A stretch of 20,735 nucleotides of DNA, taken from positions 6,809 through 27,543 of IMG/VR virus record IMGVR_UViG_3300003690_003189, one strand, 5' to 3'. Below the pieces are notes generated by a model. That model saw nothing but the letters and a program-made list of their open reading frames with translations, was not told where the DNA came from and did no database searches. Both the position numbers and the translations under genes were made by a program. Numbering within the stretch: position 1 is the first letter of the stretch; every line of letters starts with the position of its first letter. Of the stretch, positions 1 to 20,735 are shown piece by piece. The stretch comes from a virus.

Positions 1-183
1 TGGTATACACTTGCGATGCCGGACGGATACGAAAAGAAGTTTCAACCATCCAAGTGGGCCGAACTGCTGAGCACAGATGAAGAGTTCCGAGCGAAAGTTA
101 TAACGCTAATGGACGAAGAAGTAATCCAGAAGTTTGATAAACGCGAAGGTTCAGCCGATCAATTCTATTCAGATCCTGGATAA
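1..183 (+). CDS. 3' end of an unrecognised protein (partial)
   Basis: An open frame enters from the left edge and stops at TAA (181-183), giving the last 60 residues of a protein. The tail is charged and probably helical (…LMDEEVIQKFDKREGSADQ…), with no motif that I recognise. It ends 5 bases before the promoter at 189, so it closes the preceding transcription unit. Its codon use looks like that of the following genes. I do not assign a function; the upstream sequence is needed. Confidence 0.6.
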   Translation, partial: WYTLAMPDGYEKKFQPSKWAELLSTDEEFRAKVITLMDEEVIQKFDKREGSADQFYSDPG

Positions 184-188
184 AACGC

Positions 189-217
189 TTGACAGCCCTC
201 CTATAATACGTTATACT
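189..217 (+). promoter_or_regulatory. Sigma-70-type promoter upstream of the deaminase operon
   Basis: TTGACA (189-194), a 17-base spacer, then TATACT (212-217). The base two before the -10 is G, as in the other strong promoters of this window. Transcription would start near 224, giving a leader of about 20 bases before the ATG at 244. The spacer contains the left arm of an inverted repeat whose right arm is the ribosome binding site. Confidence 0.75.
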
Positions 218-240
218 TAAATATAAGCTTGTGGGAGGGC
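195..240 (+). repeat. Inverted repeat enclosing the -10 box and covering the deaminase RBS
   Basis: GCCCTCC (195-201) is the exact reverse complement of GGAGGGC (234-240). The right arm is the Shine-Dalgarno sequence of the deaminase gene. The left arm lies upstream of the expected start site, so only read-through RNA from upstream contains both arms and can hide the RBS; RNA from the local promoter cannot. The 32-base loop holds two shorter possible stems. This logic is inferred from the sequence. The known parallel is T4 gene e, whose early read-through RNA sequesters its RBS. Confidence 0.45.
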
Positions 241-243
241 TTT

Positions 244-687
244 ATGTCGACATGTGCCCGAGAATATGAATCGGAATATAGTGCAGAGAAATTCCATAAA
301 TATTCCGGTAAGACACGCCGATATATGGAACTAGCTAGCCGCATGGCGCATCGGTCTACATTTCCAGATTATCGCCATGGCGCCGTGTTGGTCAAGGGAT
401 CGATTCGAAATGTCTCCTTCAACAAGAACAATTATTGCGCGTTTGGCTCGCGGTTCCAACGAGAACACCAAGGAAAGACCACGCTCCACGCAGAACTGGG
501 CGCTATCCTAGGAATGGATCGCAGCATCACAGAAGGATCTACGGTGTATGTAGCCAGAGTAGGCCGCGAAGGAGAATACAAGCTCTCCAAGCCGTGCCAC
601 ATGTGCCACGAAGCCCTCAAGCATGTGGGTGTTAAGCGCGTTGTATATACGATTAATAATAAAATGGCAGGAAGTTATAAACTATGA
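244..687 (+). CDS. Zinc-dependent nucleotide/cytidine deaminase family protein
   Basis: A 147-residue protein of the cytidine/deoxycytidylate deaminase superfamily. The catalytic signature is visible: HAE at residues 82-84 (zinc ligand His82 and proton-shuttling Glu84), and PCHMC at 117-121 (zinc ligands Cys118 and Cys121). The most likely role is deamination of dCMP or a related pyrimidine in the cytoplasm to supply dUMP for thymidylate synthesis, which fits the dUTPase and RNR in this window. The exact substrate cannot be read from the sequence. I chose ATG 244 because GGGAGGG lies 4-5 bases upstream; an in-frame TTG at 229 is less likely. The stop overlaps the next start (ATGA). The N-terminal 25 residues are polar and not typical of dCMP deaminases, so another deaminase subgroup is possible. 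Confidence 0.82.
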   Translation: MSTCAREYESEYSAEKFHKYSGKTRRYMELASRMAHRSTFPDYRHGAVLVKGSIRNVSFNKNNYCAFGSRFQREHQGKTTLHAELGAILGMDRSITEGSTVYVARVGREGEYKLSKPCHMCHEALKHVGVKRVVYTINNKMAGSYKL

Positions 688-1640
688 AAAGAGTATTGAT
701 TATTGATGCTCTCAATATGTTTTTGAGAGCATATATTGTGGATCCATCACTATCAACGAATGGAGAGCCCATCGGAGGCTTCAAGGGCTCCCTTAAAATT
801 CTTCAAAAGCTTGTGCGTATGATTAAACCAAATGAAGTCGTAATTGTGTGGGATGGTCCGAATGGTTCGCGCAAACGCAGAGCCATGGATAAAAACTACA
901 AGGGAGGACGCAAGCCAATTCGTTTGAACAGAAACGTAAAAGCGCTCACAGAAAACGAGGAGATGCAAAATCGGGTTTGGCAGCAAACCCGCGCCATTGA
1001 ATATTTCAATGAAATGCCCATCATTCAAGTGATGATAGCAGAGGTAGAGGCCGACGATGTTGTCTCTTATCTCACACAAATGTCGTATTATGATGGATGG
1101 CAGAAGGTAATTGTTTCCAACGACAAGGATTTTTATCAACTTTGTGATGATGAAACAGTAGTGTATCGTCCCACTAGTGATATTGTTTATAATAAAAAGC
1201 GTATTGTGGAGGAGCTAGGAGTACATCCTCGTAATATGGCTCTCGCACGCGCTCTTGTGGGGGATGCATCTGACAATCTGCCGGGAATTAAGTCTGTAGG
1301 ATTTAAGAGCATTCAGCGCCGGTTAGGATTTTTGGCTGCAGACAAAGATTATAATATTGATGATGTGGTAGGATACTGTGAGAAAGTAGATAAAAAACTT
1401 AAATTTCATACAAATATTATCGAAGGCGAAAATATTATTGCACATAATTATAAAATGATGCAGCTCTATTCTCCGATGCTTTCAGTTCAATCAAAAGACT
1501 TTGTTCGAAACGCTATTGAGAATTTTAACTGTAGTTTCAATAAGATAGAAATCATAAAGAAAATGCGCGATGATGGTTTTGGGGAACTGAATTGGAAGGA
1601 CCTTGAACTGCATTTAAATAAAATCAATTCTGAGTGTTAA
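684..1640 (+). CDS. 5'-3' exonuclease / flap endonuclease (RNase H-like)
   Basis: A 318-residue member of the FEN/5'-3' exonuclease family, the group of T4 RNase H, T5 exonuclease and the DNA polymerase I small domain. Acidic metal-binding residues appear in the expected order: Asp8 (LIIDALN), Asp57 (VVIVWDG), Glu122/Asp124/Asp125 (EVEADDV), Asp147/Asp149 (SNDKDF), Asp194/Asp197 (VGDASDN). They are followed by the helix-hairpin-helix-like GIKSVGFKSI at 201-210. The likely role is removal of RNA primers and flaps on the lagging strand. This suits a DnaE-type polymerase, which has no 5' nuclease domain of its own. The start overlaps the deaminase stop by 4 bases, so the two are translationally coupled. 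Length is normal for phage members. Confidence 0.93.
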   Translation: MKRVLIIDALNMFLRAYIVDPSLSTNGEPIGGFKGSLKILQKLVRMIKPNEVVIVWDGPNGSRKRRAMDKNYKGGRKPIRLNRNVKALTENEEMQNRVWQQTRAIEYFNEMPIIQVMIAEVEADDVVSYLTQMSYYDGWQKVIVSNDKDFYQLCDDETVVYRPTSDIVYNKKRIVEELGVHPRNMALARALVGDASDNLPGIKSVGFKSIQRRLGFLAADKDYNIDDVVGYCEKVDKKLKFHTNIIEGENIIAHNYKMMQLYSPMLSVQSKDFVRNAIENFNCSFNKIEIIKKMRDDGFGELNWKDLELHLNKINSEC

Positions 1641-1645
1641 ATTGC

Positions 1646-1673
1646 TTGACTTTCGGACAGGTTCTGTTATATT
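1646..1673 (+). promoter_or_regulatory. Probable sigma-70-type promoter for the helicase gene
   Basis: TTGACT (1646-1651), a 16-base spacer, TATATT (1668-1673). The bases before the -10 are TGT, giving an extended -10 (TGn). It lies between the exonuclease stop and the helicase start, about 26 bases upstream of the TTG start codon. It is weaker than the other promoters, with one -35 and one -10 mismatch and a shorter spacer. Confidence 0.55.
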
Positions 1674-1698
1674 TAGTAATGCGAAGGCGGGATGAAAA

Positions 1699-3066
1699 TT
1701 GAACGAAAAAGTTAGCTTTAGTCGTTATGGAAAGGCCTTCCAAGAAGGCCTTGTTCAGATTATATATGAAGATCGCCCTTTTGCCGATCAAATTACCGAA
1801 GTACTCCATATACATTTCTTAGAATTGGAATACTTGCGCGTATTTATAGAGAAGATTATTAACTACCGCGATAGATACGCCACTCACCCTTCCGCCGAAG
1901 CTGTTATAACAATGCTGCGCACGGAACTTGACAACGAAGACAAAGTTGTACAGAAGCAAGTGCGTGATTATTTTGCCAAAATTACATGCAATGAGGCAAC
2001 TGATATAAAATATATTAAAGAGCAATCGCTTGATTTTTGCCGTAAGCAAAATTTGAAAGAAGCAATGCTCAAGTCAGTTAGCTTGTTGCAAACATGCTCC
2101 TTTGATGAAATTTCAAAGACAATCAATGATTCGCTTAAACTTGGCTCTGATAACAACTTTGGCTATGATTATATAGCTGATTTTGAACAGCGATTTGTTC
2201 CACGCCATCGGTTACCCATCACCACTGGCTGGAAAGAGATTGATGCTATCTGTGGCGGTGGCTTGGGTAAAAGCGAACTTGGGGTCGTCATTGCACCAAC
2301 TGGCGCCGGCAAGACTTTCTGCTTGGTGCACCTTGGCGCGCAAGGACTTAAAGAGGGAAAGGTGGTTGTCCACTACACCCTGGAACTTCAAGATACAATT
2401 ATTGCAAATAGATATGATAGCTGTTTAACAGGTTATCCGCTTTCTGATATTATTAACTTTAAAGAAGAAGTGTATGAAGAGATTAAAGATATGGAAGGGA
2501 GGCTTATTATTAAAGAATACCCTACCAAATCTGCGACGACAAATACTATTAAATCTCACCTTACTAGGTTGTTAAAGAGAGATATCAAGCCGGGGATGAT
2601 CATTGTGGACTATGCTGATCTTTTAAGACCGGTTACTGCAAGAAAAGAAAAGAGAAATGAACTAGAATCTATCTACGAAGATCTACGCGCAATATCAACA
2701 GAGTTTGCTTGCCCTGTGTGGACCGCATCACAGACGAATCGGTCAGGATTAAACGCAGAAGTCATTACAATGGAGCAGATTTCAGAAGCGTTCAGTAAGT
2801 GTTTTGTTGCTGATTTCATTTTTTCTGTTTCGCGTACAGTCGAAGACAAACAAAACAATCAAGGGAAAATTTTTATTGCAAAGAACAGGAATGGGCCTGA
2901 TGGTATCGTGTATGATATTTTCATGGATCCCAGCAGTGCAAAAATAAGAATCATGCCAAAAACAACAGTAAATGGAGCTATCCCACTAAACCCGGTTGCC
3001 CTAAGTGCAAGCATGCAAAAAGGGTTGCTACAAAACAAGTATGAAAAATTTAGAAAAAGGAAATAA
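1699..3066 (+). CDS. DnaB-like replicative DNA helicase
   Basis: A 455-residue RecA-fold ATPase of the DnaB/T4 gp41 type. A helical N-terminal region (about 1-150) resembles the collar domain of phage DnaB-like helicases. Then come Walker A APTGAGKT (199-206), Walker B MIIVDYADLL (300-309, Asp304), and WTASQTNRSG (341-350), which carries the sensor Gln345 and the Asn347-Arg348 pair typical of DnaB motif H3/H4. It would form a hexamer that unwinds the fork ahead of the DnaE polymerase. I start at TTG 1699, preceded by AAGGCGGG; an ATG at 1692 is in another frame that soon closes. No primase domain is fused. There is a promoter directly upstream. Confidence 0.92.
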   Translation: MNEKVSFSRYGKAFQEGLVQIIYEDRPFADQITEVLHIHFLELEYLRVFIEKIINYRDRYATHPSAEAVITMLRTELDNEDKVVQKQVRDYFAKITCNEATDIKYIKEQSLDFCRKQNLKEAMLKSVSLLQTCSFDEISKTINDSLKLGSDNNFGYDYIADFEQRFVPRHRLPITTGWKEIDAICGGGLGKSELGVVIAPTGAGKTFCLVHLGAQGLKEGKVVVHYTLELQDTIIANRYDSCLTGYPLSDIINFKEEVYEEIKDMEGRLIIKEYPTKSATTNTIKSHLTRLLKRDIKPGMIIVDYADLLRPVTARKEKRNELESIYEDLRAISTEFACPVWTASQTNRSGLNAEVITMEQISEAFSKCFVADFIFSVSRTVEDKQNNQGKIFIAKNRNGPDGIVYDIFMDPSSAKIRIMPKTTVNGAIPLNPVALSASMQKGLLQNKYEKFRKRK

Positions 3067-3082
3067 ATCAAAATGAGAACAA

Positions 3083-4966
3083 TTGAAAACATACGCAGAT
3101 TCAGATTATCCGATACTTTGCCGTCTCGACGAGTTTGATCCGGGTACCCCGGGCACCGAAGAGTGGTGGCAAACCTGCCGCCGAGTCGTGGAAGGAATGT
3201 TCAATATTCAAAAGGAACATGTTGTTCGTTTAGGACTCGAATGGAACGACAGCAAAGCACAGCAGACCGCCAAAGATGCTTATGAGCGTTTATTCAATTT
3301 AAAGTGGACCCCACCCGGCCGCGGCCTGTGGATGATGGGGACAAAGTTTGTGGAGGAGAAGACCGGAGCAGCTCTTTTTAATTGTGCGTTTCGAAGCACG
3401 AAAGAGCTTACGACAAAAGGGGGTTATTTATTTGCCTGGATGATGGATGCTTTGATGCTTGGAGTTGGTGTTGGATTTGACACGCTGGGCGCCGGAACAC
3501 TTACTATTAAAGAGCCTGAATACACAAGCGATACCCTCATTATTGATGATTCGCGCGAAGGCTGGGTAAACTCTGTTCACAGTTTGCTGGATGGATTTTT
3601 TCTTGGTTATAAAGTACCTAAATTTGATTATTCTGCAATTCGTGCTGCTGGTGCCAAGATTAATGGTTTTGGTGGCACGTCGAGTGGTGCTGAACCCCTT
3701 AAAGAACTTCATAAGAATTTGACCGATTTATTTTCGTCAAAGGTTGGAGAACCGATCACATCTGTTGATATTGTAGATACAGAGAATCTTATAGGTCGCT
3801 GTGTAGTAGCTGGTAATGTTCGCCGATCTGCGGCTCTTGCAATGGGCAACTATGACGACAAACGCTATTTAGAAATGAAGAACGATCAAGAGAAGCTATA
3901 CCACCATCGATGGGGCTCAAATAACTCATTTAATGCAGAGGTTGGTATGGATTATACATGGCATGCAAATCAGAGTAAGAACAACGGCGAACCCGGGTAC
4001 ATCTGGCTAAACAATGCTAAAACCCGTGGAAGATTTAAAGATAAAGAAAGGTTTGATGATATTAATGTTGCCGGTTTTAATCCGTGTGTAGAACAACAGC
4101 TTCACGATGGCGAGTGCTGTTGCTTAGTTGAGACTTTCCCGGCAAAGCACGATAGCTATGAAGACTATTTGAAGACATTAAAGTGTGCATATCTTTATGG
4201 AAAGACGGTTACTCTGGTGAATACACACTGGCCAGAAACGAATGCTATAATGCTCAAGAATCGCCGCATTGGGCTGTCACAATCTGGTATTGTCCAAGCA
4301 TTTAACAAGCACGGCCGCCGCACTATGTTGGGCTGGTGTGACAACGCATATGATCATATTCAGCAACTGGATAAAGAATATTCTGATTGGTTATGCGTCC
4401 CAAAGTCTATTCGAACAACCTCAATCAAGCCAAGCGGCACCGTGTCGCTTCTAAATGGTTCAACCCCTGGTATTCACTTCCCAGAAGACGAGTACTACAT
4501 TCGTCGGATTCGTTTTTCGAATGATTCCAAGTTGCTTGATGGCATCCGAGAAGCAAGATATGTGATTGAGAAAGACGAATATTCTCCCAACACGGTGTGT
4601 GTTGAGTTTCCCGTGCACGAACCCTATTTCCAGAAAGGAAAGCGGGATGTGTCACTGTGGGAGCAACTGGAAATCGCCGCACAATATCAATATTATTGGG
4701 CAGATAATGCAGTATCAGTAACTGTGACCTTCAAGGAAGAAGAGGCCGATCAACTCAAGAGTGCCCTAGAAATGTATGAAACCCGGCTAAAAGCAGTGTC
4801 GTTTTTGAAATATCAAAAGACAGGATATAAACAGGCGCCCTATGAACCGATTACAAAGAAAGAGTACGAAAAGAGAATAAAGAACGTTACACCAATTCAA
4901 CGAATTAAAACAAATGTTGCTGGAGTAGGGGCGGCATTTTGCGATGGAGAAAATTGTGAACTTTAA
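3083..4966 (+). CDS. nrdJ: Class II (adenosylcobalamin-dependent) ribonucleoside-triphosphate reductase
   Basis: A 627-residue protein that reduces ribonucleotides to deoxyribonucleotides with a B12-derived radical. It matches the monomeric RTPR type (Lactobacillus leichmannii, 739 residues) but is shorter. Active-site residues are visible: Cys101 (NCAF), NPCVE at 333-337 with the presumed thiyl Cys335 and Glu337, and Cys346 eleven residues later, the same spacing as Cys408/Cys419 in RTPR. A C-terminal CDGENC pair is the usual redox shuttle reduced by thioredoxin, and a thioredoxin-like gene is at 14291. The start is a TTG with a weak RBS; the nearby ATG at 3072 is out of frame. It overlaps the next gene by 23 bases. 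Needing cobalamin, it works with or without oxygen and depends on host B12. Confidence 0.93.
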   Translation: MKTYADSDYPILCRLDEFDPGTPGTEEWWQTCRRVVEGMFNIQKEHVVRLGLEWNDSKAQQTAKDAYERLFNLKWTPPGRGLWMMGTKFVEEKTGAALFNCAFRSTKELTTKGGYLFAWMMDALMLGVGVGFDTLGAGTLTIKEPEYTSDTLIIDDSREGWVNSVHSLLDGFFLGYKVPKFDYSAIRAAGAKINGFGGTSSGAEPLKELHKNLTDLFSSKVGEPITSVDIVDTENLIGRCVVAGNVRRSAALAMGNYDDKRYLEMKNDQEKLYHHRWGSNNSFNAEVGMDYTWHANQSKNNGEPGYIWLNNAKTRGRFKDKERFDDINVAGFNPCVEQQLHDGECCCLVETFPAKHDSYEDYLKTLKCAYLYGKTVTLVNTHWPETNAIMLKNRRIGLSQSGIVQAFNKHGRRTMLGWCDNAYDHIQQLDKEYSDWLCVPKSIRTTSIKPSGTVSLLNGSTPGIHFPEDEYYIRRIRFSNDSKLLDGIREARYVIEKDEYSPNTVCVEFPVHEPYFQKGKRDVSLWEQLEIAAQYQYYWADNAVSVTVTFKEEEADQLKSALEMYETRLKAVSFLKYQKTGYKQAPYEPITKKEYEKRIKNVTPIQRIKTNVAGVGAAFCDGENCEL

Positions 4967-5186
4967 TCATTTAATGGAAAAAAGAACTTTGAAGCGGCCA
5001 TGTCGCTCGCTTGGTTATCGCGAGTGCTATTATCAGCCTGTAGGCGAGGGCCGCGTAACCAGTGGCGCTCATGTGCATATTCAAATGAGATGTCGAAATT
5101 GTGGCCGTCGAGAGGATACTTTCTTATCGGAAAAACAATACAACACACATCGAAAAATATTACAAAAGGAAATAGGAAATGTTTAA
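4944..5186 (+). CDS. Small zinc-ribbon-like protein, function unknown
   Basis: Up to 80 residues. Cys20, Cys28, Cys50 and Cys53 (CRNCGRR), with His43 and His45 between them, suggest one bound zinc. The protein is basic (many Arg/Lys) and could bind nucleic acid, but no family is recognised. The start is uncertain: ATG 4944 lies inside the end of the RNR gene; GTG 4956 has GGAG 6 bases upstream; ATG 4974 has no clear RBS. All four cysteines remain with any of these starts. Its stop overlaps the co-chaperonin start by 8 bases. A link with RNR is suggested only by position. Confidence 0.6.
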   Translation: MEKIVNFNHLMEKRTLKRPCRSLGYRECYYQPVGEGRVTSGAHVHIQMRCRNCGRREDTFLSEKQYNTHRKILQKEIGNV

Positions 5187-5451
5187 CCCAGTAAATCGTT
5201 ACATCTTGATTGATGTGCCTGCAGTGCCCGGCACAACTCCCGAGTCGCTCATCGTACTCCCAGAGGACTATAAGCCGGAAGAAGAAAGGTTTGTTGAAGT
5301 CCTGGCGTTAAAAGCAGCACGAGATGTTAGATTCGATATAGAACTAGACGCAAAGCTTGTTGTTGACGGCTCTATGATTGAGGAAATAAGTGTTGGCGGA
5401 ACTATTTATAATGTTATTTTGGACAACTATGTCGTGGGAATAATTGAGTAA
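5179..5451 (+). CDS. GroES-like co-chaperonin (T4 Gp31 type)
   Basis: A 90-residue protein resembling Gp31/GroES. It begins with the characteristic strand 'NRYILIDVP', has a mobile-loop-like stretch (about residues 16-34) ending in SLIVLPEDYKP, and finishes with a short-strand barrel ending DNYVVGIIE. Such proteins cap the GroEL ring and enlarge the folding chamber; T4 Gp31 does this for the capsid protein Gp23. A phage GroEL gene starts at 20153, so this could be its dedicated partner, although the two genes are about 15 kb apart. An RBS (AGGAAATAGGAA) lies just upstream and the start overlaps the previous stop. Fast divergence of Gp31-like proteins keeps the confidence moderate. Confidence 0.75.
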   Translation: MFNPVNRYILIDVPAVPGTTPESLIVLPEDYKPEEERFVEVLALKAARDVRFDIELDAKLVVDGSMIEEISVGGTIYNVILDNYVVGIIE

Positions 5452-5467
5452 TGGAGGCGCAAAATGT

Positions 5468-6400
5468 ATGGACAAACACTTTTACAACGAAGCATCAGCC
5501 AAAAAACTTGGCTGGGAACCAAGCTGGTTTGGTGAAAAGTATTTTGACGATAAACTTGTAAGAGCGGTTAAGAAATGGCAGAAAGCCCGCGGCCTCGTCG
5601 GCGATGGCCTGGCTGGGCCGATGACCTTTCGTCGCTTATGGACTGAACGTCAAGCAGATATTGACGAATATAAGCCTAATGATTCTCATTATTCAAACTA
5701 TATCGTTTACAATGGAGAGTTTCACCCTATCGAGTGGGACAAGTTTGTGCTCTGGTCCGAGAAGGGAGGTCTAGAAACAAAAGCCGGCCACTTCTATAAT
5801 TATTCAGGGCGCCCCAAACGCAAGATTCGATATTTTGTAAATCACTGGGATGTATGTCTCAGTTCTGCTTCTTGCCAAAGAGTGCTCGATAAGCGCGGTA
5901 TCTCTGTTCACTTCTTAATCGACAACGACGGAACCATTTATCAGACATTGGATATGCAGCATGCAGCATGGCATGCCGGCTCATCGCGCACGAACCGGCC
6001 GTCTGTGGGAGTAGAAATTACGAACGCATATTATATAAAGTATCAAGATTGGTATGTAAAGAATGGCTTTGGTGAGCGACCGCTGGTGGAAGATGCCTGG
6101 GTGCACGGAAAAGAACTAGATCCGTTTTTGGGTTTTTATCCTCAACAAATAGAGGCGTTGAAGGCACTCTGGAAAGCAATAAACGGTGCAACGAATATTC
6201 CCTACGAAACGCCACTTAATCAATTTGATAACACATCCACAAAATATGAGCAAGATGTGGCATATGGAAAATTCTCTGGATTTGTCAGCCATTACCACAT
6301 TAGTAAATCAAAGATTGATTGTGCGGGTTTAGACATCAAGACGTTTTTAGATGAGACGAAATACGATATCGATATTCTGGAGACCATAAAAAACAAATAA
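5468..6400 (+). CDS. Endolysin: peptidoglycan-binding domain plus N-acetylmuramoyl-L-alanine amidase
   Basis: A 310-residue modular lysin. Residues about 25-58 form a peptidoglycan-binding repeat (DDKLVRAVKKWQKARGL…GLAGPMTFRRLW). Residues about 118-300 form an Amidase_2-type catalytic domain: zinc ligand His126 (VNHWD), the HFLIDNDGTIYQ strand, AWHAG (168-171), SVGVEITN, and a C-terminal SHYHISKSKIDCAG carrying the second His and the Cys/Asp ligand region. It would cut the amide bond between MurNAc and L-Ala in the cell wall at lysis. ATG 5468 is preceded by GGAGG. No signal peptide is seen, so export would need a holin; the membrane protein at 8204 is a weak candidate. The N-terminal position of the binding domain suggests a Gram-negative host, by analogy with modular lysins of such phages. 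Confidence 0.9.
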   Translation: MDKHFYNEASAKKLGWEPSWFGEKYFDDKLVRAVKKWQKARGLVGDGLAGPMTFRRLWTERQADIDEYKPNDSHYSNYIVYNGEFHPIEWDKFVLWSEKGGLETKAGHFYNYSGRPKRKIRYFVNHWDVCLSSASCQRVLDKRGISVHFLIDNDGTIYQTLDMQHAAWHAGSSRTNRPSVGVEITNAYYIKYQDWYVKNGFGERPLVEDAWVHGKELDPFLGFYPQQIEALKALWKAINGATNIPYETPLNQFDNTSTKYEQDVAYGKFSGFVSHYHISKSKIDCAGLDIKTFLDETKYDIDILETIKNK

Positions 6401-6444
6401 CTGGCACCTCGACGGTTTTGATGCAAGCAGACTAAGGAAATAGG

Positions 6445-7326
6445 TTGATTGAATACGACAAGATAGTAATCGGCAGTTCATTATCGGCGGTCTTGTATGC
6501 ATTCAGCAACAAATACCCTATCTTCTTTGCTGAAGAGCGCCGCCCATTTCGGTTTGATTATTTCCACCCTCACATAGATTTATCGTGTCTTAAGATTGGC
6601 GGAGCTGCCAAAAGTTTAACGACGTTTGATGGTGTTAAAATGGTGGGCCAGCCTAAAGAATTGCTGTGGGAAAGGCTGCTTTTCTTGTTGTCCCTTGATG
6701 GCAATGCCCCGCTATCAAATCTATGTCACAGCATAAGGTACGACGGCGACAGAGTGGTGTGCTCTAATGAATATTCTAAAATAATGGAATTTAAATTTAA
6801 TGAATGCATTTATTTCGGAGATGAAAAAAGTATAGGTTTTGTCAGCCAAAAAGGACTTGACGAAGATAGTTATGTATGCTATGATTATATTGCGTTCAAT
6901 AGAGGCGGCAAGCATGAAATCGACCATATTCGCACAAATGATGATTTTGTCAGCGAAATATGGTTTTATTCTTCCGACCGTATTGATGGAAATACTCCTG
7001 TTAGAGATGCTTGTGCGGTATCAAAGTTAACTGGAGATCAATTAGCAGACTTTGACTTTTCAGAAACCATGGCCCGCTTCAAGGTCGTTCACGAGATGGA
7101 ACAGCGAGGCATGAAAGGATTATTTGCAGGTGGATACACAACAGCAGGCAACCCCAAACATTACAAATTTAGAACAACTAGCATTAATCGCGAAACGAAT
7201 AAGCAAAGAAATGAATATGAGCCGCAAGCCACTAATATTAAAATTTCAAAAAGTAGCGACAAAGATTGGCTCAAAGATTTACCATCGGCTTGTGTGGCCT
7301 ACGATAGATTTTTGAGGCATTGGTGA
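6445..7326 (+). CDS. FAD/NAD(P)-binding-like protein, function unknown
   Basis: A 293-residue protein starting at TTG with AAGGA upstream. The N-terminus (YDKIVIGSSLSAVLYAF) has the hydrophobic strand, glycine turn and helix of a Rossmann dinucleotide-binding fold, but GxSxxA replaces the usual GxGxxG/A. An acidic residue follows after the second strand (FFAEERRP), where FAD enzymes bind ribose. The overall look recalls the UDP-galactopyranose mutase type of FAD protein, but I cannot identify catalytic residues. A conserved-looking C-terminal segment (LADFDFSETMARFKVVHEME) is unassigned. The stop overlaps the next gene (GTGA), so the two products probably act together. Function remains open. 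Confidence 0.55.
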   Translation: MIEYDKIVIGSSLSAVLYAFSNKYPIFFAEERRPFRFDYFHPHIDLSCLKIGGAAKSLTTFDGVKMVGQPKELLWERLLFLLSLDGNAPLSNLCHSIRYDGDRVVCSNEYSKIMEFKFNECIYFGDEKSIGFVSQKGLDEDSYVCYDYIAFNRGGKHEIDHIRTNDDFVSEIWFYSSDRIDGNTPVRDACAVSKLTGDQLADFDFSETMARFKVVHEMEQRGMKGLFAGGYTTAGNPKHYKFRTTSINRETNKQRNEYEPQATNIKISKSSDKDWLKDLPSACVAYDRFLRHW

Positions 7327-8207
7327 GCAAACTTCATCTAGCTGGTGTCATACCCATCGCGAACCTTAAGTCAGACTTTAATTTGGCGACACCTGAAATA
7401 CTATTGCCAGTAAACACTGGGTTTACAGCAATACAAAAGTCTGTGTTTGAGTGCGCCATGGCAGGCTGCAATACCATATGGATTGTAGCAAATGATGATT
7501 TGGCTCCCATTGTGAGAAATGTGGTTGGAGAATGGACGTATGATCCTGTATATTATTCAAGATATAGTAAGTTTAGTTCGGAGGAAAGAAAAGAAATACC
7601 TATTTATTATGTCCCTGTTCACCCCAAAGATCGCGACCGTCGTGATTCGTATGGATGGTCAGTTTTATATGGGGCATATTCCGCATGGAAGGTGGCATTC
7701 AAAATATCACAGTGGCTAACACCAGACAAATACTATGTATCTTTTCCAATGTCGGCATATGACATATACAATATACGAGAACACAGACAACTTATTTCTC
7801 ACAAAGAGAATAACTTTTTTTTAAGCTATGACGGCGAAACCGTCAAAAATAATAAACCAATAGCATTCACATTCACAGGAGAAGATTTTAAACAATGCAG
7901 ACGTTCGGTAAACAAACAAACAACCCGGGAGTATTTACCCCCTTTACCCGGCCAACAGTACCCCACCCAGAAGATACCTTTGAGTCAGAGGTGGAGCGCC
8001 CGCCACTTCGATTTCCAGACGGTGTTCAAGAAAGTGAGCGAGAAGAATGCGACAAAGATCGATCTTGATTGGTATTACGACATTTCTAGTTGGACTGGAT
8101 ATCGGAATTTTCTTGCATCAGATTTTTATATAGAAAAACCTCCCGATCACTTGACAAAGCCTCACAAACACGTTAAGATACCATATAAAGAGAGTGAAAA
8201 AGTATGA
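7323..8207 (+). CDS. Nucleotidyltransferase / GT-A-like protein, tentative
   Basis: About 294 residues. The N-terminal half looks like a Rossmann/GT-A nucleotide-sugar fold: a first strand (LAGVIPIA), a long segment ending in IQKSVFECAMAGC, then the strand TIWIVANDDLAPIV, as in sugar-1-phosphate nucleotidyltransferases that bind NTP between the first and second strands. The canonical GxGTR loop is not seen, so activity is uncertain. I chose GTG 7323 (4-base GTGA overlap with the previous stop, GAGG upstream) over TTG 7320. It is coupled at both ends to its neighbours. With the FAD-like protein it may make or attach a sugar-like modification; that is inference only. Confidence 0.5.
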   Translation: MSKLHLAGVIPIANLKSDFNLATPEILLPVNTGFTAIQKSVFECAMAGCNTIWIVANDDLAPIVRNVVGEWTYDPVYYSRYSKFSSEERKEIPIYYVPVHPKDRDRRDSYGWSVLYGAYSAWKVAFKISQWLTPDKYYVSFPMSAYDIYNIREHRQLISHKENNFFLSYDGETVKNNKPIAFTFTGEDFKQCRRSVNKQTTREYLPPLPGQQYPTQKIPLSQRWSARHFDFQTVFKKVSEKNATKIDLDWYYDISSWTGYRNFLASDFYIEKPPDHLTKPHKHVKIPYKESEKV

Positions 8208-8512
8208 AGCCGTTACGATGGCTTAAGCATCGGTTGGGCCATAAGCTTGAACACCTTAAGCCAAGTCATCTCATGGACGTAATAATGGACCATGGAATTG
8301 CGCTAGTTATAATAATAGTGGTGTGGGAAATTATTGAAGATATTCTTTTTCCGCTTATGTTCATCTGGCTCGGCAAAAACGTTAACGCATGGTTTTTGAC
8401 AGGAGCACCGCTAAGCTGGTTTTTATGTCTTCACCCAATTGCAGTCCCTGTTTTATGGGGAATTTGGATCAAACTTTCAAGGAGAAACAGTGAGAAATCA
8501 ATCCAAGATTAA
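8204..8512 (+). CDS. Small membrane protein (holin-like?)
   Basis: 102 residues with a basic amphipathic N-terminus (about 1-25), a strong transmembrane segment at about 31-53 (GIALVIIIVVWEIIEDILF), one or two further hydrophobic stretches at about 55-93, and a basic tail. This size and topology are compatible with a class II or III holin, and an endolysin lies 2 kb upstream, but many phage membrane proteins look alike. It overlaps the previous stop (ATGA) and the dnaE start by 23 bases. It could equally anchor the products of the two preceding genes. No family is recognised. Confidence 0.55.
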   Translation: MKPLRWLKHRLGHKLEHLKPSHLMDVIMDHGIALVIIIVVWEIIEDILFPLMFIWLGKNVNAWFLTGAPLSWFLCLHPIAVPVLWGIWIKLSRRNSEKSIQD

Positions 8513-8996
8513 ATTTGTTGGCTTGCATGCACATAGCGTGGCAGGTTCAATTTTTGACGCCATAGGATACCCACAGGCGCATATGGATTTCGCATATGAG
8601 AATGGCTGTGATGCCCTCGCGCTGACCGATCATGGGAACATGAACGGACTGCCATATCAGGTATTGCATGCCAAGAACATGAAGGCAGAAGGAAAGGACT
8701 TCAAGCCGATATTCGGTTGCGAGGCCTACTTCACTCCGTCTATTGCAGAATGGAGAGAAGCATATGATAAGGCGATGGAAGATAAGAAGAAAGCGCGCTC
8801 CATCAAGAAGGATGAACAATCGGGAGCCACCATTGAAGATGAGGGCGATAGCAAGAGGATACAGTCGATCCTAAAACGTCGTAGGCATCTTGTATTAGTA
8901 GCACAGAATCAAACTGGTCTTAACAATTTGTTTAAGCTTGTGTCAGAGAGCTACAAAGCTGAGAATTTCTATCGGTATCCGCGCATTGACTGCTGA
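8490..8996 (+). CDS. dnaE: DNA polymerase III alpha subunit, N-terminal fragment (PHP domain)
   Basis: The first 168 residues of a DnaE-type (family C) DNA polymerase, starting at GTG 8490 with AAGGAG 6 bases upstream. It carries the PHP-domain start: LHAHS (about residues 12-16, His13/His15), ALTDHGNMNG, and IFGCEAYFT, followed by a charged linker rich in Lys/Asp/Glu. The frame then runs into TGA (8994-8996) because of the 34-base duplication at 8958-9025. Removing one repeat copy joins this frame to the next and gives one protein of 1142 residues, the normal DnaE size. As written, this is a truncated product lacking all polymerase residues. Confidence 0.85.
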   Translation: MRNQSKIKFVGLHAHSVAGSIFDAIGYPQAHMDFAYENGCDALALTDHGNMNGLPYQVLHAKNMKAEGKDFKPIFGCEAYFTPSIAEWREAYDKAMEDKKKARSIKKDEQSGATIEDEGDSKRIQSILKRRRHLVLVAQNQTGLNNLFKLVSESYKAENFYRYPRIDC

Positions 8997-11952
8997 GAAT
9001 TTCTATCGGTATCCGCGCATCGACTATGCACTCCTAGAGAAGTACAATGAGGGCATTATCGCCGCGTCAGCATGCCTAGGAGGCGTTTACGCTGGCAACT
9101 ACTGGGAGCACCGGGAGGAAGGTCCCGAAGCCGTCCTAGAGGCAATGCGCGCGTCTACAGAGCGTATGGTGGATATCTTCGGAGATCGCTGGTATGCCGA
9201 GATCCAGTGGAACAACATCAAAGAGCAACACGAACTAAATCAATACATCATTCAGGTTGCACAAGAGTTCGGCGTAAAGCTGATCACGACAGCCGACAGT
9301 CATTACCCCAACCCTGATGCTTGGAAGGACCGTGAACTTTACCGGTGCCTCGGTTGGCTTGGCAAAGGACGTCCGTCGTGGGCTGAAGAAGAGTCGCAAC
9401 TTCCTGCCGGCGTTGAAGAAATCGGATATGAGTTGTATCCAAAGAACGGCGACCAGATCTGGGACAGCTATAAGCAATATGCAAAGTCGTGTGGTTTTGA
9501 ATACGACGATGCAGTCGTTTTGGAGAGCATTGAAGAGACATATCGAATTGCTCATGAGCGAATTGAAACCTTTCTACCCGACAACACTGTACGCTTGCCA
9601 GAGTTTGTTGTTCCGGCCGGCTACACAGCAACACAGGCGCTTGTACAATATGCACTTGAAGGCCTGAAAGAGTATGGACTACACACCAACAAAGAATATA
9701 CGGATCGGTTACGACGGGAGCTAGGGGTTATTGATGATCGTGGGTTCTCCAAATACTTCTTGACAATGAAATCCATTGTTGACGTAGCAACTAACATGAT
9801 GCTCGCCGGCCCCGGAAGAGGATCAGCGGCCGGCTCGCTCGTAGCTTATGCCCTGGGTATCACGCAGGTTGATCCCATCAAGCATGGGCTCCTATTTTCT
9901 CGTTTCCTTCGCTCGGACGCTACTGATTATCCGGACATCGATTATGATGTGTCCGATAGTATGACTCTTAAAGAAAAGTTGGTAGAGATGTGGGGTGAGG
10001 ATTGTGTTGCACCCATTTCAAATTGGAACACGTTGCAGCTTAAGTCTCTGGTCAAAGATATTTCAAAGCTTTATAACATTCCATTCACAGAGGTTAACAC
10101 CGTTACATCTATCATGATGCGCGAGGCGCTCCCAGAAGCAAAAAAGAAGCACGGTATCAAGGCGGGTGTTTATACTCCCACCTGGGAAGAGGTGATGGAG
10201 TTCTCCCCGTCGCTGCAGAAGTATCTCACACAGCATCCAGCCGTGAAGACGCACGTTGAGGGTCTTATTGGTCAGGTGCGCTCATGCTCACGCCACGCCG
10301 GCGGTGTTGTGATTGCAGAGGATTTAGACAAGAACATGCCACTTATTAATTCTGGCGGTGTTCGACAGGCACCGTGGGCAGAGGGACAGAACGTTCGACA
10401 CCTTGAGCCCATGGGTTTTATTAAGTTCGATCTGCTTGGGCTCTCGACGCTAAAGATGATGGAGGGTTGCATCGAGCACATTCTGCGTCGTCACCACAAC
10501 ATCGAAGAACCAACGTTTGCACAAATTCGAGAATACTATAACAACAATCTTCATCCAGATGTAATTGATCTGGAGAATCAAGAAGTATATGAGAATATCT
10601 TTCACGCTGGCAAATGGGCTGGTGTATTTCAGTTCACAGAGCAAGGAGCACAAAAGTTCTGTACTCGCGTGAAGCCCCGCAATATTATTGATGTATCGGC
10701 CATCACCTCTATCTATCGACCAGGGCCTTTGTCGGCCAACGTGCATGATGAATATGTGGAGGCTAAGGAAAGCCCCCACCACATCAAATATCTTACAGAT
10801 GAGTCACGCGAGATCACACAAGAGACCTTTGGCTTCCTCATCTTTCAAGAGCAGATCGCTCTCTTAGCCCACAAGCTAGGTGGCTTAACTCTTGATGAAG
10901 GCAACATGCTTCGCAAAGTATTGACCAAGAAGGGAACCGGCAAGAGGAGCGTCAAGGCCAAGCTGCACGATAAGTTCATTACAGGATGCAGCAAGAAGGG
11001 CATCGCGAGAGACGAAGCACAGTCAGTGTGGGATAAGTTTGAATTCTTCTCGGGATATGGTTTTAACAAGTCGCACGCAGTATCATACAGTATCATCTCC
11101 TTCCAGTGTGCATGGTTGTGGAACTACTACCCCGCAGAGTGGATGGCGGCATTCTTGGACAAGGAGCCCGAGACCAGAAAAGAAAAGGCAATTAACATTG
11201 CAAAGAAGTTTGGGTTTGATATCGCGCCCCTTGACGTGAATAAGTCAGGCACAGTGTGGGAGATTAGTGAAGATGGAAAGACTTTGATTCAGCCCCTCAC
11301 CTCTATCAAGGGACTTGGAATGGCTGCCATCGAGCAAGTGTTGGACAATCGACCGTTCATGAATGCAGAGGATCTATTATTTCGAGAAGGGGTGTCCTAT
11401 AGCAAGCTGAACAAGAAAGCCCTCGATGCATTATGTCGAGGCGGGGCTCTTGATAATATCGTAGACGATAGATTTACAGGTCGCAAGCACTTTTGGTCAA
11501 CATGTGTTGTTGAGCGCCCGAAAAATCTGAAGAAGTTTAACGAAAATTTGGAACTGTACAGACCCGAGGGCGATTTTACGGAAGAAGAGATCATTCAGTT
11601 TAAGACTGATTTGACCGGCATATTCCCCATGAATTTGGTTATCACTCCTGAAACTATTGAGAAGTTACAAGAGAAGTTTGTTCCTCCAATTTCTGAATAC
11701 GAGACAGATCTTCAGTTGTGCTGGTTTATTCCGCGTAAGATTGTATCAAGGAAGACAAAGAATGGCAAGCTTTATTGGATCGTTGAAGTGATTGATTCGA
11801 ATAACGAGCTTACTAAGATTCGATGCTGGGGAGTAAAGCCCGATAAGGATCGTATTCACCTTAACCGTCCCTATATGGCACATCTAAAGTACGATCCAAA
11901 CTGGGGATTCAGTACCTACGCCATCGGAAAAACATTTAGACAACTAGGATAA
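8938..11952 (+). CDS. dnaE: DNA polymerase III alpha subunit, main catalytic part
   Basis: The remainder of the phage family C polymerase. The open frame begins at 8938, but homology starts at the second repeat copy (8992). Motifs in order: AASACLGG and ITTADSHYP of the PHP domain; GPGRGSAAGSLVAYALGI; YPDIDYD with two presumed catalytic Asp; SRHAGGVVI; FIKFDLLGL with the third Asp; IYRPGPLSANV; FLIFQEQIA; SGYGFNKSHAVSYSI; YYPAEWMAA; and the helix-hairpin-helix region SIKGLGMAAIEQVL. A C-terminal region (LCWFIPRKIVSR…WIVEVIDSN) resembles the OB fold. This enzyme would be the replicative polymerase with the helicase at 1699. It lacks its own start and RBS because the frame is broken upstream. 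The next gene follows after 3 bases. Confidence 0.93.
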   Translation: MCQRATKLRISIGIRALTAENFYRYPRIDYALLEKYNEGIIAASACLGGVYAGNYWEHREEGPEAVLEAMRASTERMVDIFGDRWYAEIQWNNIKEQHELNQYIIQVAQEFGVKLITTADSHYPNPDAWKDRELYRCLGWLGKGRPSWAEEESQLPAGVEEIGYELYPKNGDQIWDSYKQYAKSCGFEYDDAVVLESIEETYRIAHERIETFLPDNTVRLPEFVVPAGYTATQALVQYALEGLKEYGLHTNKEYTDRLRRELGVIDDRGFSKYFLTMKSIVDVATNMMLAGPGRGSAAGSLVAYALGITQVDPIKHGLLFSRFLRSDATDYPDIDYDVSDSMTLKEKLVEMWGEDCVAPISNWNTLQLKSLVKDISKLYNIPFTEVNTVTSIMMREALPEAKKKHGIKAGVYTPTWEEVMEFSPSLQKYLTQHPAVKTHVEGLIGQVRSCSRHAGGVVIAEDLDKNMPLINSGGVRQAPWAEGQNVRHLEPMGFIKFDLLGLSTLKMMEGCIEHILRRHHNIEEPTFAQIREYYNNNLHPDVIDLENQEVYENIFHAGKWAGVFQFTEQGAQKFCTRVKPRNIIDVSAITSIYRPGPLSANVHDEYVEAKESPHHIKYLTDESREITQETFGFLIFQEQIALLAHKLGGLTLDEGNMLRKVLTKKGTGKRSVKAKLHDKFITGCSKKGIARDEAQSVWDKFEFFSGYGFNKSHAVSYSIISFQCAWLWNYYPAEWMAAFLDKEPETRKEKAINIAKKFGFDIAPLDVNKSGTVWEISEDGKTLIQPLTSIKGLGMAAIEQVLDNRPFMNAEDLLFREGVSYSKLNKKALDALCRGGALDNIVDDRFTGRKHFWSTCVVERPKNLKKFNENLELYRPEGDFTEEEIIQFKTDLTGIFPMNLVITPETIEKLQEKFVPPISEYETDLQLCWFIPRKIVSRKTKNGKLYWIVEVIDSNNELTKIRCWGVKPDKDRIHLNRPYMAHLKYDPNWGFSTYAIGKTFRQLG
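8958..9025 (+). repeat. 34-base imperfect tandem duplication breaking dnaE
   Basis: Positions 8958-8991 and 8992-9025 are identical except 8987 T versus 9021 C. In both copies the affected codon encodes Ile (ATT/ATC), so the difference is synonymous. Thirty-four is not a multiple of three, so the duplication shifts the frame and creates a stop at 8994. Deleting either copy restores a continuous DnaE. The synonymous mismatch points to two strain haplotypes joined during assembly, though a real duplication is possible. Confidence 0.95.
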
Positions 11953-11955
11953 AAC

Positions 11956-12333
11956 ATGAACGTCATAAAATATTTTAGTCCGCTCTTAAAAGAGCCTGCT
12001 TTAAAAGATGATCTGCCGACTATTATCCGAGTACGAAAATTTGACGAGACTGCAGCTAAAGAGTTCACCATCCTAATGATGAAGGCACAAAACACAGGCC
12101 AACCATATATCCCTGTGATCATCGATAGCTACGGGGGTCAGGTTTATAGCTTAATGTCTATGATTTCGGATATTAAACATTCGAAGGTTCCGGTAGCTAC
12201 CATTGCACAAGGGAAGGCCATGTCCTGTGGGGCCATTCTTTTTAGTTTTGGGGCAGAAGGTCATCGATACATGGATCCGTATACTCAATCGAAAGGTATA
12301 CCAGATGATGGCCGAGAATTGCGCGCAAGATAA
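11956..12333 (+). CDS. ClpP-like serine protease, N-terminal fragment (frameshifted)
   Basis: 125 residues as read, of which about the first 110 are ClpP-like. Visible: IPVIIDSYGGQVYS (the oxyanion-forming DSxGG element) and GKAMSCGAILFSFGAEGHRYM with the nucleophile Ser90. After MDPYT the frame continues into unrelated residues and stops. The catalytic His, normally some 25 residues after Ser in a MIH-type motif, is missing. The rest of the fold lies in another frame from 12284. Start ATG 11956 is 3 bases after the dnaE stop. An intact protein would form barrel-shaped proteolytic complexes with an ATPase or act as a head-maturation-type protease; as written it is inactive. Confidence 0.75.
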   Translation: MNVIKYFSPLLKEPALKDDLPTIIRVRKFDETAAKEFTILMMKAQNTGQPYIPVIIDSYGGQVYSLMSMISDIKHSKVPVATIAQGKAMSCGAILFSFGAEGHRYMDPYTQSKGIPDDGRELRAR

Positions 12334-12478
12334 AGATTATTTTTTAAATATCATTCACGAAAAAAGCCATGCAGATTGGTTTTTAGCTGCTGAGGAGGCA
12401 ATGGAACACAATTTAGCAAACCATCTATATATTCCAGAGTTAAAAATACATGTTGATGTAACATTTGATTTTAAGTAA
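12284..12478 (+). pseudogene. ClpP-like protease, C-terminal fragment in shifted frame
   Basis: From about 12284 the second frame encodes LNRKVYQMMAENC…, the handle helix and C-terminal part of ClpP. It includes ADWFLAAEEAMEH, where the Asp aligns with catalytic Asp171 of E. coli ClpP. Between the nucleophile Ser and this Asp only about 51 residues can be counted across the join, against 74 in E. coli and 76 in the paralogue at 17739. So about 25 residues (near 74 or 77 bases, a number not divisible by three) are missing, including the His. An ATG at 12305 could start a separate short product, but it has no clear RBS. Stop is TAA 12476-12478. Confidence 0.7.
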
Positions 12479-14662: not shown

Positions 14663-15006
14663 TGTCACAACAAATAGTACAATCATCAACACTATATCTT
14701 AAATCTAAGGCTATTGAATCTTATACAATAATTAAAGATCTTTTAAAACAGCCGCCCGAGGAAGGTATAGCCGAGAAGATTGCAGCAGAAGCCCTGAAGT
14801 TGGCCCAGCTAGAGAGTGCAATGATTACCATTCAACAATATTTTGGAAATACGCGACCGCCAGTTGAAGGAAAGGCCGCGCCTCCTTCGCCGGAAGCTGA
14901 GCAAAAGACACAAAAAGTAACACCTGAGATATCTCCGACCTATAGGCGCTCTCTTGAAAAAGAAAAAATAAAGGAAACGCTAAAGAAGGAAAAGAAATCA
15001 TCATGA
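14662..15006 (+). CDS. Unknown protein with helical N-terminus and basic tail
   Basis: 114 residues. The first 55 or so are predicted helical (SKAIESYTIIKDLLKQ, IAEKIAAEALKLAQLESAMI). Then come a Pro/Ala-rich linker (RPPVEGKAAPPSPEAE) and a Lys/Glu-rich end likely to form a short charged helix. There is no catalytic motif and no recognised family. Its start overlaps the thioredoxin stop by one base (TAATG) and its stop overlaps the IMPDH-like start (ATGA). The layout suggests a small adaptor or oligomerising protein. Confidence 0.55.
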   Translation: MSQQIVQSSTLYLKSKAIESYTIIKDLLKQPPEEGIAEKIAAEALKLAQLESAMITIQQYFGNTRPPVEGKAAPPSPEAEQKTQKVTPEISPTYRRSLEKEKIKETLKKEKKSS

Positions 15007-16037
15007 AGAACAATTGTTTGTCTTATGATGATGTGTTGTTAGTACCCCAATACTCTGATATTCGGACACGTACAGAGATTGATCTATCTGCTCGCCTAGG
15101 TCCTGATTTGAAATTAAGTTTGCCGATTATCGCCTCCCCCATGGATACGATTTCTGAATCTGCCATGGCATTAGCAATGGATAAACATGGGGGGACTGCC
15201 ATCATTCACAGATATAACACTATTGAACAACAAGCGCGCCATATTTCGATAGCACGCGATTCATGCACCTCCCACAAAGTAATAGTGGGAGGTGCAATTG
15301 GAATTAATGATGATTTTTTGACGCGCGCTAAAATTTTAATGGCTGTTGGGGTTGATTTTTTGTGTATTGATGTGGCTCATGGCCACCATATTTTAATGAA
15401 AGAGGCTCTCTCGTTGCTGCGACAAAACTTTGGAGAAAATGTGCACATAATGGCAGGAAACATTGCCACCTTAGAGGGCGTCAACGATCTTGCAGATTGG
15501 GGTGCTGATTCTGTTCGTTGCAATATTGGCGGTGGTTCAATTTGTTCCACACGTGTCCAGACGGGCCATGGCCTTCCAGGCCTCCAAACCATTTTTGAAT
15601 GTGCCAAGACAGATCGCGATGTAAAAATCATTGCAGACGGCGGCATTAAAAATTCTGGAGATATTGTAAAAGCTCTTGGCGCTGGTGCCGATGCAGTTAT
15701 GGTGGGATCTTTATTGGCTGGAACCGATGAATCACCAGGGAAGATTTTTGAAGAAAGAGATGGCACCCGATGGAAGGTATATCGCGGAATGGCCAGCAAA
15801 GAAGCCCAACTTAAGTGGCGCGGAAAATACTCATCTTTTGAGGGAATTTCTTCCAGGGTGCCTTATCGCGGCCGTGTTGGAAAAGCGTTAGAAGAACTAG
15901 AGAGAGGAATTCGTTCCGGCTTGTCTTACTCAGGCACTCGCACAATCGAAGAATTTCATGCAAAAGCCAAGTTTGTTCAACAGTCCCCTTCCGGTCTTTA
16001 CGAAAGCAAAACGCATATTACAGAAAGGAAATGGTAG
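15003..16037 (+). CDS. IMP dehydrogenase / GMP reductase family enzyme without CBS domains
   Basis: A 344-residue TIM-barrel enzyme. Motifs: LSYDDVLLVPQYS at the N-terminus; PIIASPMDT (41-49); the catalytic loop GGGSICSTR (176-184) with nucleophile Cys181; ADGGIKNSGDIVKALGAG; the phosphate-binding GSLLAGTDESPG; YRGMAS; and a flap-like region ending VPYRGRV. GTDESPG and YRGM favour IMPDH (IMP to XMP, the gateway to guanine nucleotides), while the length and lack of a CBS pair are like GMP reductase (GMP to IMP). The CBS pair, which in IMPDH regulates the enzyme through ATP/GTP, would sit near residues 85-92, and here the chain runs straight through. The likely role is remodelling the purine pool during infection. 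ATG 15003 overlaps the previous stop. Confidence 0.88.
   Translation: MKNNCLSYDDVLLVPQYSDIRTRTEIDLSARLGPDLKLSLPIIASPMDTISESAMALAMDKHGGTAIIHRYNTIEQQARHISIARDSCTSHKVIVGGAIGINDDFLTRAKILMAVGVDFLCIDVAHGHHILMKEALSLLRQNFGENVHIMAGNIATLEGVNDLADWGADSVRCNIGGGSICSTRVQTGHGLPGLQTIFECAKTDRDVKIIADGGIKNSGDIVKALGAGADAVMVGSLLAGTDESPGKIFEERDGTRWKVYRGMASKEAQLKWRGKYSSFEGISSRVPYRGRVGKALEELERGIRSGLSYSGTRTIEEFHAKAKFVQQSPSGLYESKTHITERKW
15264..15296 (+). repeat. Perfect 12-bp hairpin inside the IMPDH-like gene
   Basis: TGCACCTCCCAC (15264-15275), a 9-base loop, then GTGGGAGGTGCA (15285-15296), an exact inverted repeat. Eight of twelve pairs are G-C, so it should form readily in RNA. It is not followed by a T-run, so it is not a normal terminator. 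It encodes residues about 88-98, directly beside the point where IMPDH usually carries its CBS domains. The function is unknown; it could slow ribosomes, protect RNA or mark an old insertion/deletion site. Confidence 0.6.
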
Positions 16038-20152: not shown

Positions 20153-20735
20153 ATGAGTCGCGCTTATGACGATAACCAAACACTACAACAAAAGATAATG
20201 AATGGCGCAAACAAGCTGGCGGACAATGTTGCTTCCACGCTTGGTCCGCGCGGACGGAATGTTCTATTGCAAGAGAAAGGAAAGACACCTTTTATTACAA
20301 AAGATGGAGCAACAGTCGCAGCGTTTGTTGCTTGTGATGATCCTTTTGAAAATGCAGCGGCGCAAGTGATTAAACAAGCAGCAGTAGAGACAAACAGTGA
20401 AGCTGGCGATGGTACAACGACTGCCACGGTAATTGCCCGCGCGATCTTTCAGGAGGCCCAAAGATTTGTGGCGTCCGGCGTTTGCCCGATAGAACTGCAA
20501 AGAGGAATTAACCTGGCGACAAAAGAGGTGCTTAACAATCTAACAGAGATGTCTACACCAGTCCGCACGCTATCAGATATTGAACATATTGCTACTATCT
20601 CTGCTAATAATGATGAATCCATCGGTAAACTAATTGCTATGGCGGTTGATCGCGTGGGCCAAGATGGTTCTATTACTATTGAAGAATCGCGCTCTCTTGA
20701 AACATCCCTAGATGTAACCGAGGGATTCAAAGTCA
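20153..20735 (+). CDS. groEL: Phage-encoded GroEL chaperonin, N-terminal part (runs off the window)
   Basis: The first 194 residues of a 60-kDa-type chaperonin; the frame is open to the right edge. The equatorial-domain nucleotide site is intact: TLGPRGRNVLL (29-39), ITKDGATVA with Asp51, and GDGTTTATV starting at residue 85, with Asp86 matching the catalytic-loop Asp87 of E. coli GroEL. ISANND and DGSITIEES are also recognisable. It begins MSRAYDDNQTL, shorter and different from the usual MAAKDIKFG start. The RBS TGAGGT is upstream of ATG 20153. The partner is probably the Gp31-like gene at 5179. Phage-borne GroELs are known in some large phages (for example Pseudomonas phage EL). It folds phage proteins in the cytoplasm. 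Confidence 0.95.
   Translation, partial: MSRAYDDNQTLQQKIMNGANKLADNVASTLGPRGRNVLLQEKGKTPFITKDGATVAAFVACDDPFENAAAQVIKQAAVETNSEAGDGTTTATVIARAIFQEAQRFVASGVCPIELQRGINLATKEVLNNLTEMSTPVRTLSDIEHIATISANNDESIGKLIAMAVDRVGQDGSITIEESRSLETSLDVTEGFKV

Follow-up and report, generated by a model that had tools for sequence, protein, structure and literature searches.

Rab GDI/REP is a known case in which the GR2 fold of flavoproteins is put to a use other than FAD. GMPPA, a non-catalytic subunit of GDP-mannose pyrophosphorylase, binds its ligand rather than making it and works via its partner (PMC11228364), and phage RB69 builds on hydroxymethylcytosine (PMC6024577). The locus described here encodes, side by side, a GR2-type protein (A) and a nucleotidyltransferase-fold protein (B); a literature search found no description of this pair or of the phage group that carries it. 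In the reading we prefer, the genes of A and B are inseparable and are expressed along with the replicative polymerase, and their products most likely form one complex.

The locus lies in a 27.5 kb virus record (IMGVR_UViG_3300003690_003189), from which a stretch of 20,735 nt (record positions 6,809 to 27,543), hereafter the window, was analysed. The features concerned, in window coordinates, are:

6445..7326, + strand: gene A, TTG 6445 to TGA 7326, 293 aa; fold of GR2-type flavoproteins, GxGxxG loop lacking
7323..8207, + strand: gene B, GTG 7323 to TGA 8207, 294 aa; RmlA/IspD-type nucleotidyltransferase fold without GGxGTR, the K or the metal D
7323..7326, + strand: A/B stop-start overlap GTGA, from the sequence; adjacency and overlap are kept in relatives
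8204..8512, + strand: gene C, ATG 8204 to TAA 8512, 102 aa, small membrane protein; an optional member of the block
8204..8207, + strand: B/C stop-start overlap ATGA, from the sequence
8490..11952, + strand: dnaE (DNA polymerase III alpha), GTG 8490 start inside C; frame broken at 8958-9025

The first-pass annotation had described three genes coupled by GTGA and ATGA overlaps, and the frames of A, B and C listed above confirm this arrangement. The open reading frame of B opens at TTG 7320, but the starts of its orthologues (M-S-x-x-H-L-A-G) match the position of GTG 7323, and with this start the A/B overlap is exactly GTGA. As the GTG start of dnaE falls within C, the coupled block is A-B-C-dnaE; an endolysin gene lies upstream of it in the window. 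The dnaE frame exceeds 1100 aa in 164 of 196 relatives. In the window a 34-bp sequence is duplicated in tandem at 8958-9025 (the copies being 97% identical), which shifts the frame and splits it into 8490-8996 and 8938-11952; either mutation or assembly error would explain the duplication. Further downstream, within 11956-12478, a ClpP-like frame ends at 12333 and an overlapping second frame (12203-12478) resembles its continuation, probably a second frameshift in the same contig as the dnaE break. The window also encodes a 90-aa protein (5179-5451) that reads as a GroES-type co-chaperonin, without a profile match, and is conserved in most relatives; a 344-aa protein with an IMP dehydrogenase/GMP reductase domain (15003-16037; PF00478, E 7.8e-107), conserved near dUTPase and DNA methyltransferase; and a GroEL-like frame that begins at 20153 (20153-20735).

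The structures of A and B were predicted with AlphaFold2 from alignments of 64 and 65 sequences, respectively. The model of A (pLDDT 88.2, pTM 0.83) has the GR2 flavoprotein fold, and VIA-align matches it to UDP-galactopyranose mutase (UGM; 4u8k, Z 13.0, rmsd 4.0, 256 residues), renalase (Z 13.0, 232 residues) and REP-1 (Z 11.7). The ranking of subfamilies differs between methods: Foldseek places flavin monooxygenases and halogenases first (E 4.8e-8 and weaker), VIA-align renalase and UGM. Since every fold match is of FAD type, the predicted model settles the fold of A, though not its subfamily. Membership of the UGM family cannot rest on sequence, as a profile comparison with E. coli Glf aligned 17 columns only; no Pfam family, GLF included, matched A even at an E-value limit of 10. 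Two unnamed BFVD proteins also match A well (A0A516M785, E 1.5e-21, 25% identity; and A0A516LBJ9). Where the GxGxxG loop is expected, A reads G-S-S-L-S-A in the window and typically G-S-S-L-x-A among relatives, the second Gly being present in 2% of 120 unique sequences and the third in none. The acidic residue that ends strand 2 and contacts the ribose is not kept across the family, position 30 being E in 44%, Q in 14%, K in 13% and D in 10%; the window's own A has E30. A has probably lost the customary mode of FAD binding. Residues D147, G154, D160, F174, R179, D188, S193 and R249 are invariant across diverged members.

The model of B (pLDDT 86.3, pTM 0.85) has the nucleotidyltransferase fold, matching the RmlA-type glucose-1-phosphate thymidylyltransferase 3hl3 (VIA-align Z 18.4, rmsd 2.8, 208 residues) and IspD (1ini, Z 17.5). 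In a profile comparison, residues 7-73 align to RfbA/GalF (E 1.8e-4, probability 48.6), with nothing comparable among the cross pairs; Pfam NTP_transferase stays below its cut-off, with weak matches in 5 of 65 B members (best E 0.036). The alignment sets G-I-I-L-A-G-G-S-G-T-R of RfbA against G9-V-I-P-I-A-N-L-K-S-D19 of B, such that the window's B has A14-N15-L16-K17-S18-D19 in place of GGxGTR, and K-Q-L-L-P against E26-I-L-L-P. Over 114 unique sequences, position 19 (the catalytic Arg) is D, E, T, N or S, the listed residues including neither Arg nor Lys, and position 26 (the Lys before LLP) is mainly E, D, S, W, A or N, with no Lys listed. The site of the metal-binding Asp, at the end of the fourth main strand, reads F142-P143 (F 100%, P 97%, otherwise S), an equivalence drawn from strand order rather than superposition. 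The alignment of the loop positions could be off by one. Residues H6, G9, P12, E44, C45, W54, D75 and P76 are invariant across diverged members, and C50 and D104 are conserved at 99%; these residues are scattered over the fold rather than clustered where strand ends shape the pocket. An ordinary nucleotidyltransferase encoded elsewhere in the same phage family (L236:1103-1825) retains a GEGSR loop.

Both departures that had led the first-pass annotation to call the proteins off-family, GSSLSA in place of GxGxxG in A and the missing GxGTR loop in B, hold throughout the family (120 and 114 sequences), as statements about sequence motifs and not as measured losses of activity. Its two fold assignments also stood up to the fold searches it had named, with A inside the FAD/NAD folds, in the FAD GR2 group, and B inside the nucleotidyltransferases.

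A-B is carried by large phages, most of them marine, that make up an uncultured family. Scans of IMG/VR returned 245 relatives of A (by profile) and 99 of B, on contigs that reach 194-203 kb, and in a collection of bacterial and archaeal genomes only four binned contigs match, all with the same phage gene order. By tblastn, A and B had no match in 50,697 phage records, and their diverged members likewise found nothing among phages. No Pfam or PHROG family was found for A or B, and searches of Pfam, PHROGs and PDB sequences, with single sequences and family alignments, gave nothing useful except the weak nucleotidyltransferase matches of B. One chromosome record that bears the label of a WOR-3 MAG (L205; CP070664.1, positions 1-11021) opens with genes of the A-B phage family, which suggests that this stretch of the assembly is phage or mis-joined.

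A and B are adjacent in the 216 loci that have both, which are not all independent, with a gap of -109 to +5 bp in all except L050, whose A frame is broken; the loci were collected through A or B, so that phages of this group lacking the pair would escape view. The pair nearly always lies directly upstream of dnaE, often overlapping it. Most loci preserve the order exonuclease, DnaB, RNR, endolysin, A, B, dnaE, and diverged lineages without endolysin or RNR at this spot still have A, B and dnaE together. Co-occurrence across phages, a check that the first-pass annotation had proposed, shows A and B to be inseparable and next to dnaE, whereas its statement that three genes are tied together holds for C in the window's clade only. 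Of 196 loci having B and dnaE (a redundant set), 55 include C, which lies upstream of A in L193; C was rejected as a general member of the unit, and its own profile matches are weak (DUF7420, E 0.0054, below its cut-off; phrog_2313, E 0.061). Where C is absent, the spacing from B to dnaE is mostly about 20 bp or less and in other loci about 200 bp.

Other genes occur at this position in some relatives. Between endolysin and A, L041 (4135-4746) and about 100 other loci encode a putative secreted metallopeptidase of matrixin type, which is absent from the window. To judge from sequence reading, A is preceded in single lineages by iron-sulphur assembly-like genes and by a gene resembling isocitrate lyase (L168:7299-7998, L170:7405-7710, L171:654-1880), and in L223 (5298-7271) it directly follows a ThyX-like gene that an intein appears to interrupt.

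Comparison of the window with five relatives gave dN/dS values of 0.11-0.14 for A and 0.08-0.12 for B, which indicate purifying selection. Taken with the invariant residues, these values of about 0.1 identify A and B as maintained proteins rather than decaying genes, and taken with the adjacency in 216 loci they argue that the association did not arise by chance. Both proteins evolve much faster than the polymerase (mean distances 0.71 for A and 0.58 for B, against 0.24 for DnaE). A mirror-tree analysis did not single out A-B, whose distances co-vary no more strongly (partial r 0.39) than those with unrelated neighbours, several other pairs giving 0.42-0.63.

Sugar-related genes are found both beside the pair and elsewhere in these genomes. 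In one sister lineage (L209-L214 and L217-L219; 9 loci) an RfaE domain II-like nucleotidyltransferase gene (TIGR02199, E 1.3e-15, below its cut-off; PF01467, above its cut-off) immediately precedes A, with an overlap in L214; its confinement to this lineage suggests that it probably reflects one event. An RfaE-type orthologue is present in all four genomes of 194-203 kb, tens of kb or more from A-B, and all five of the largest genomes have a tandem pair of GT4-type glycosyltransferase genes, also tens of kb away. Beside the GT4-type pair are epimerase and cytidylyltransferase-like genes in L238 and GDP-mannose dehydratase, cytidylyltransferase and NTP transferase genes in L236, so that in the two clusters read the neighbouring genes are of heptose or GDP-mannose type. 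Of the four 194-203 kb genomes, two alone have glycosyltransferase family 2, and a mannose-6-phosphate isomerase-type cupin is encoded upstream of A in L220 and L221. We take these genes as a general sugar context, in which a sugar-nucleotide link for A-B is weakly favoured but not proven. The thymidylate synthase family includes dCMP hydroxymethylase. A search of eight records, including four of 194-203 kb, revealed no gene of this family, and DNA hypermodification via a hydroxymethylated pyrimidine is for this reason not favoured. The joint role in making or attaching a sugar nucleotide suggested in the first-pass annotation is accordingly upheld in part: the folds are right and the sugar-gene context is circumstantially in agreement, but the residues for binding the FAD pyrophosphate and for nucleotidyl transfer are absent across relatives.

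The reading we prefer, and hold tentatively, is that A and B are two enzyme folds, produced together, which have been re-tooled or are non-catalytic and which bind a nucleotide or sugar nucleotide. B would keep a nucleotide, sugar nucleotide or sugar phosphate in its old pocket without the usual metal-dependent transfer, its D-S-Y-G-W-S stretch being placed about where RmlA has the substrate-binding D-G-L-A-Q-A, and A would act as its partner, supplying or shaping a second site; an effect on DNA, envelope or metabolites may follow. The predicted folds, the profile match of B to RfbA/GalF, the loss of catalytic loops in both folds, the signs of maintenance by selection, the inseparability of the pair next to dnaE and the sugar context count in support, and GMPPA (PMC11228364) and GDI/REP are precedents for non-catalytic or non-FAD use of such folds. 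Against it count the co-variation of A and B, no stronger than with unrelated neighbours, the scatter of the conserved residues of B away from its pocket, and the RfaE-type neighbour being confined to one lineage; unusual loops, too, can still bind FAD or nucleotides. It is also conceivable, if doubtful, that the two folds, A having given up FAD and B its catalytic residues, form a new kind of complex with a new conserved site (D147, D160, R179, D188, S193 and R249 of A; H6, E44, C45, C50, D75, D104 and D109 of B) and carry out a new reaction or signalling tied to replication.

We favour the re-tooled, ligand-binding pair over three other explanations. The proteins could be active sugar-nucleotide enzymes with diverged motifs, B activating or transferring a sugar phosphate, A interconverting or oxidising the sugar, and a phage glycosyltransferase attaching it to DNA, tail or host envelope; the folds, the RfaE-type gene that overlaps A in L214 and adjoins it in eight other loci, the cupin gene upstream of A and the GT4-type genes with their heptose- or GDP-mannose-type neighbours all speak for this. 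We nonetheless consider it doubtful, given that the catalytic residues of both folds are missing across relatives while L236:1103-1825 keeps its GEGSR, that the eight records yielded no thymidylate synthase-family gene and that the glycosyltransferase genes are distant from A-B. The folds proposed in the first-pass annotation are right and its sugar-nucleotide guess is possible, but, judged from the sequence motifs, the enzymes as normally understood are absent. The place directly upstream of dnaE, often overlapping it, which persists even where endolysin or RNR has been lost from the flank, could instead indicate a non-enzymatic scaffold or regulator of the replisome or another early protein, made with the polymerase; the absent catalytic loops and the same non-catalytic precedents are compatible with such a role, but the argument is one of gene order, A and B evolve much faster than DnaE, and we regard this as unlikely. 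Fast evolution, ligand-binding folds without catalytic motifs and a position among replication genes would also suit a pair that acts early in counter-defence or host takeover by sequestering either a nucleotide signal or a sugar-nucleotide enzyme of the host; throughout the family, however, A-B is found at a fixed position, as most accessory counter-defence genes are not, which makes this explanation improbable.

A-B is thus an undescribed, apparently core gene pair of a widespread uncultured phage group. If our preferred reading of a re-tooled pair is true, it would offer a clean case of two different enzyme folds jointly turned into something else, and a handle on how these phages, while replicating, act on the nucleotides or sugars of the host. 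The pair is also a warning that fold alone is insufficient to annotate such genes as UDP-galactopyranose mutase or sugar nucleotidyltransferase.

Compared with described systems, B resembles ORF053c of the DNA-arabinosylating phage RB69, a nucleotidyltransferase-fold protein, the predicted structures matching at E 2.1e-4; the RB69 pathway has a hydroxymethylcytosine basis (PMC6024577), whereas no thymidylate synthase-family gene turned up in the eight A-B phage records. With RmlA, GalU and IspD, B shares the fold and the N-terminal profile alignment, but the signature Gly, Arg, Lys and metal Asp are all replaced. Flavin monooxygenases and flavin-dependent halogenases give A its best Foldseek E-values, although with TM-scores of 0.36-0.49 on the query, about 10% identity and an FAD loop that A is missing. 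UDP-galactopyranose mutase (GLF) and renalase match the fold over nearly the whole of A, and the N-terminus Y-D-x-I-x-x-G-S-x-L is common to A and E. coli Glf; A differs from both in being shorter, in lacking GxGxxG and the conserved Glu after strand 2, and in having no Pfam match. Rab GDI/REP shares the GR2 fold with A (REP-1, Z 11.7) and shows no other resemblance, as it serves the eukaryotic handling of prenylated Rab proteins. GMPPA (PMC11228364) is, like B, a non-catalytic form of the nucleotidyltransferase fold to judge by the motifs of B, but its partner is a catalytic paralogue, whereas the partner of B, A, has a different fold.
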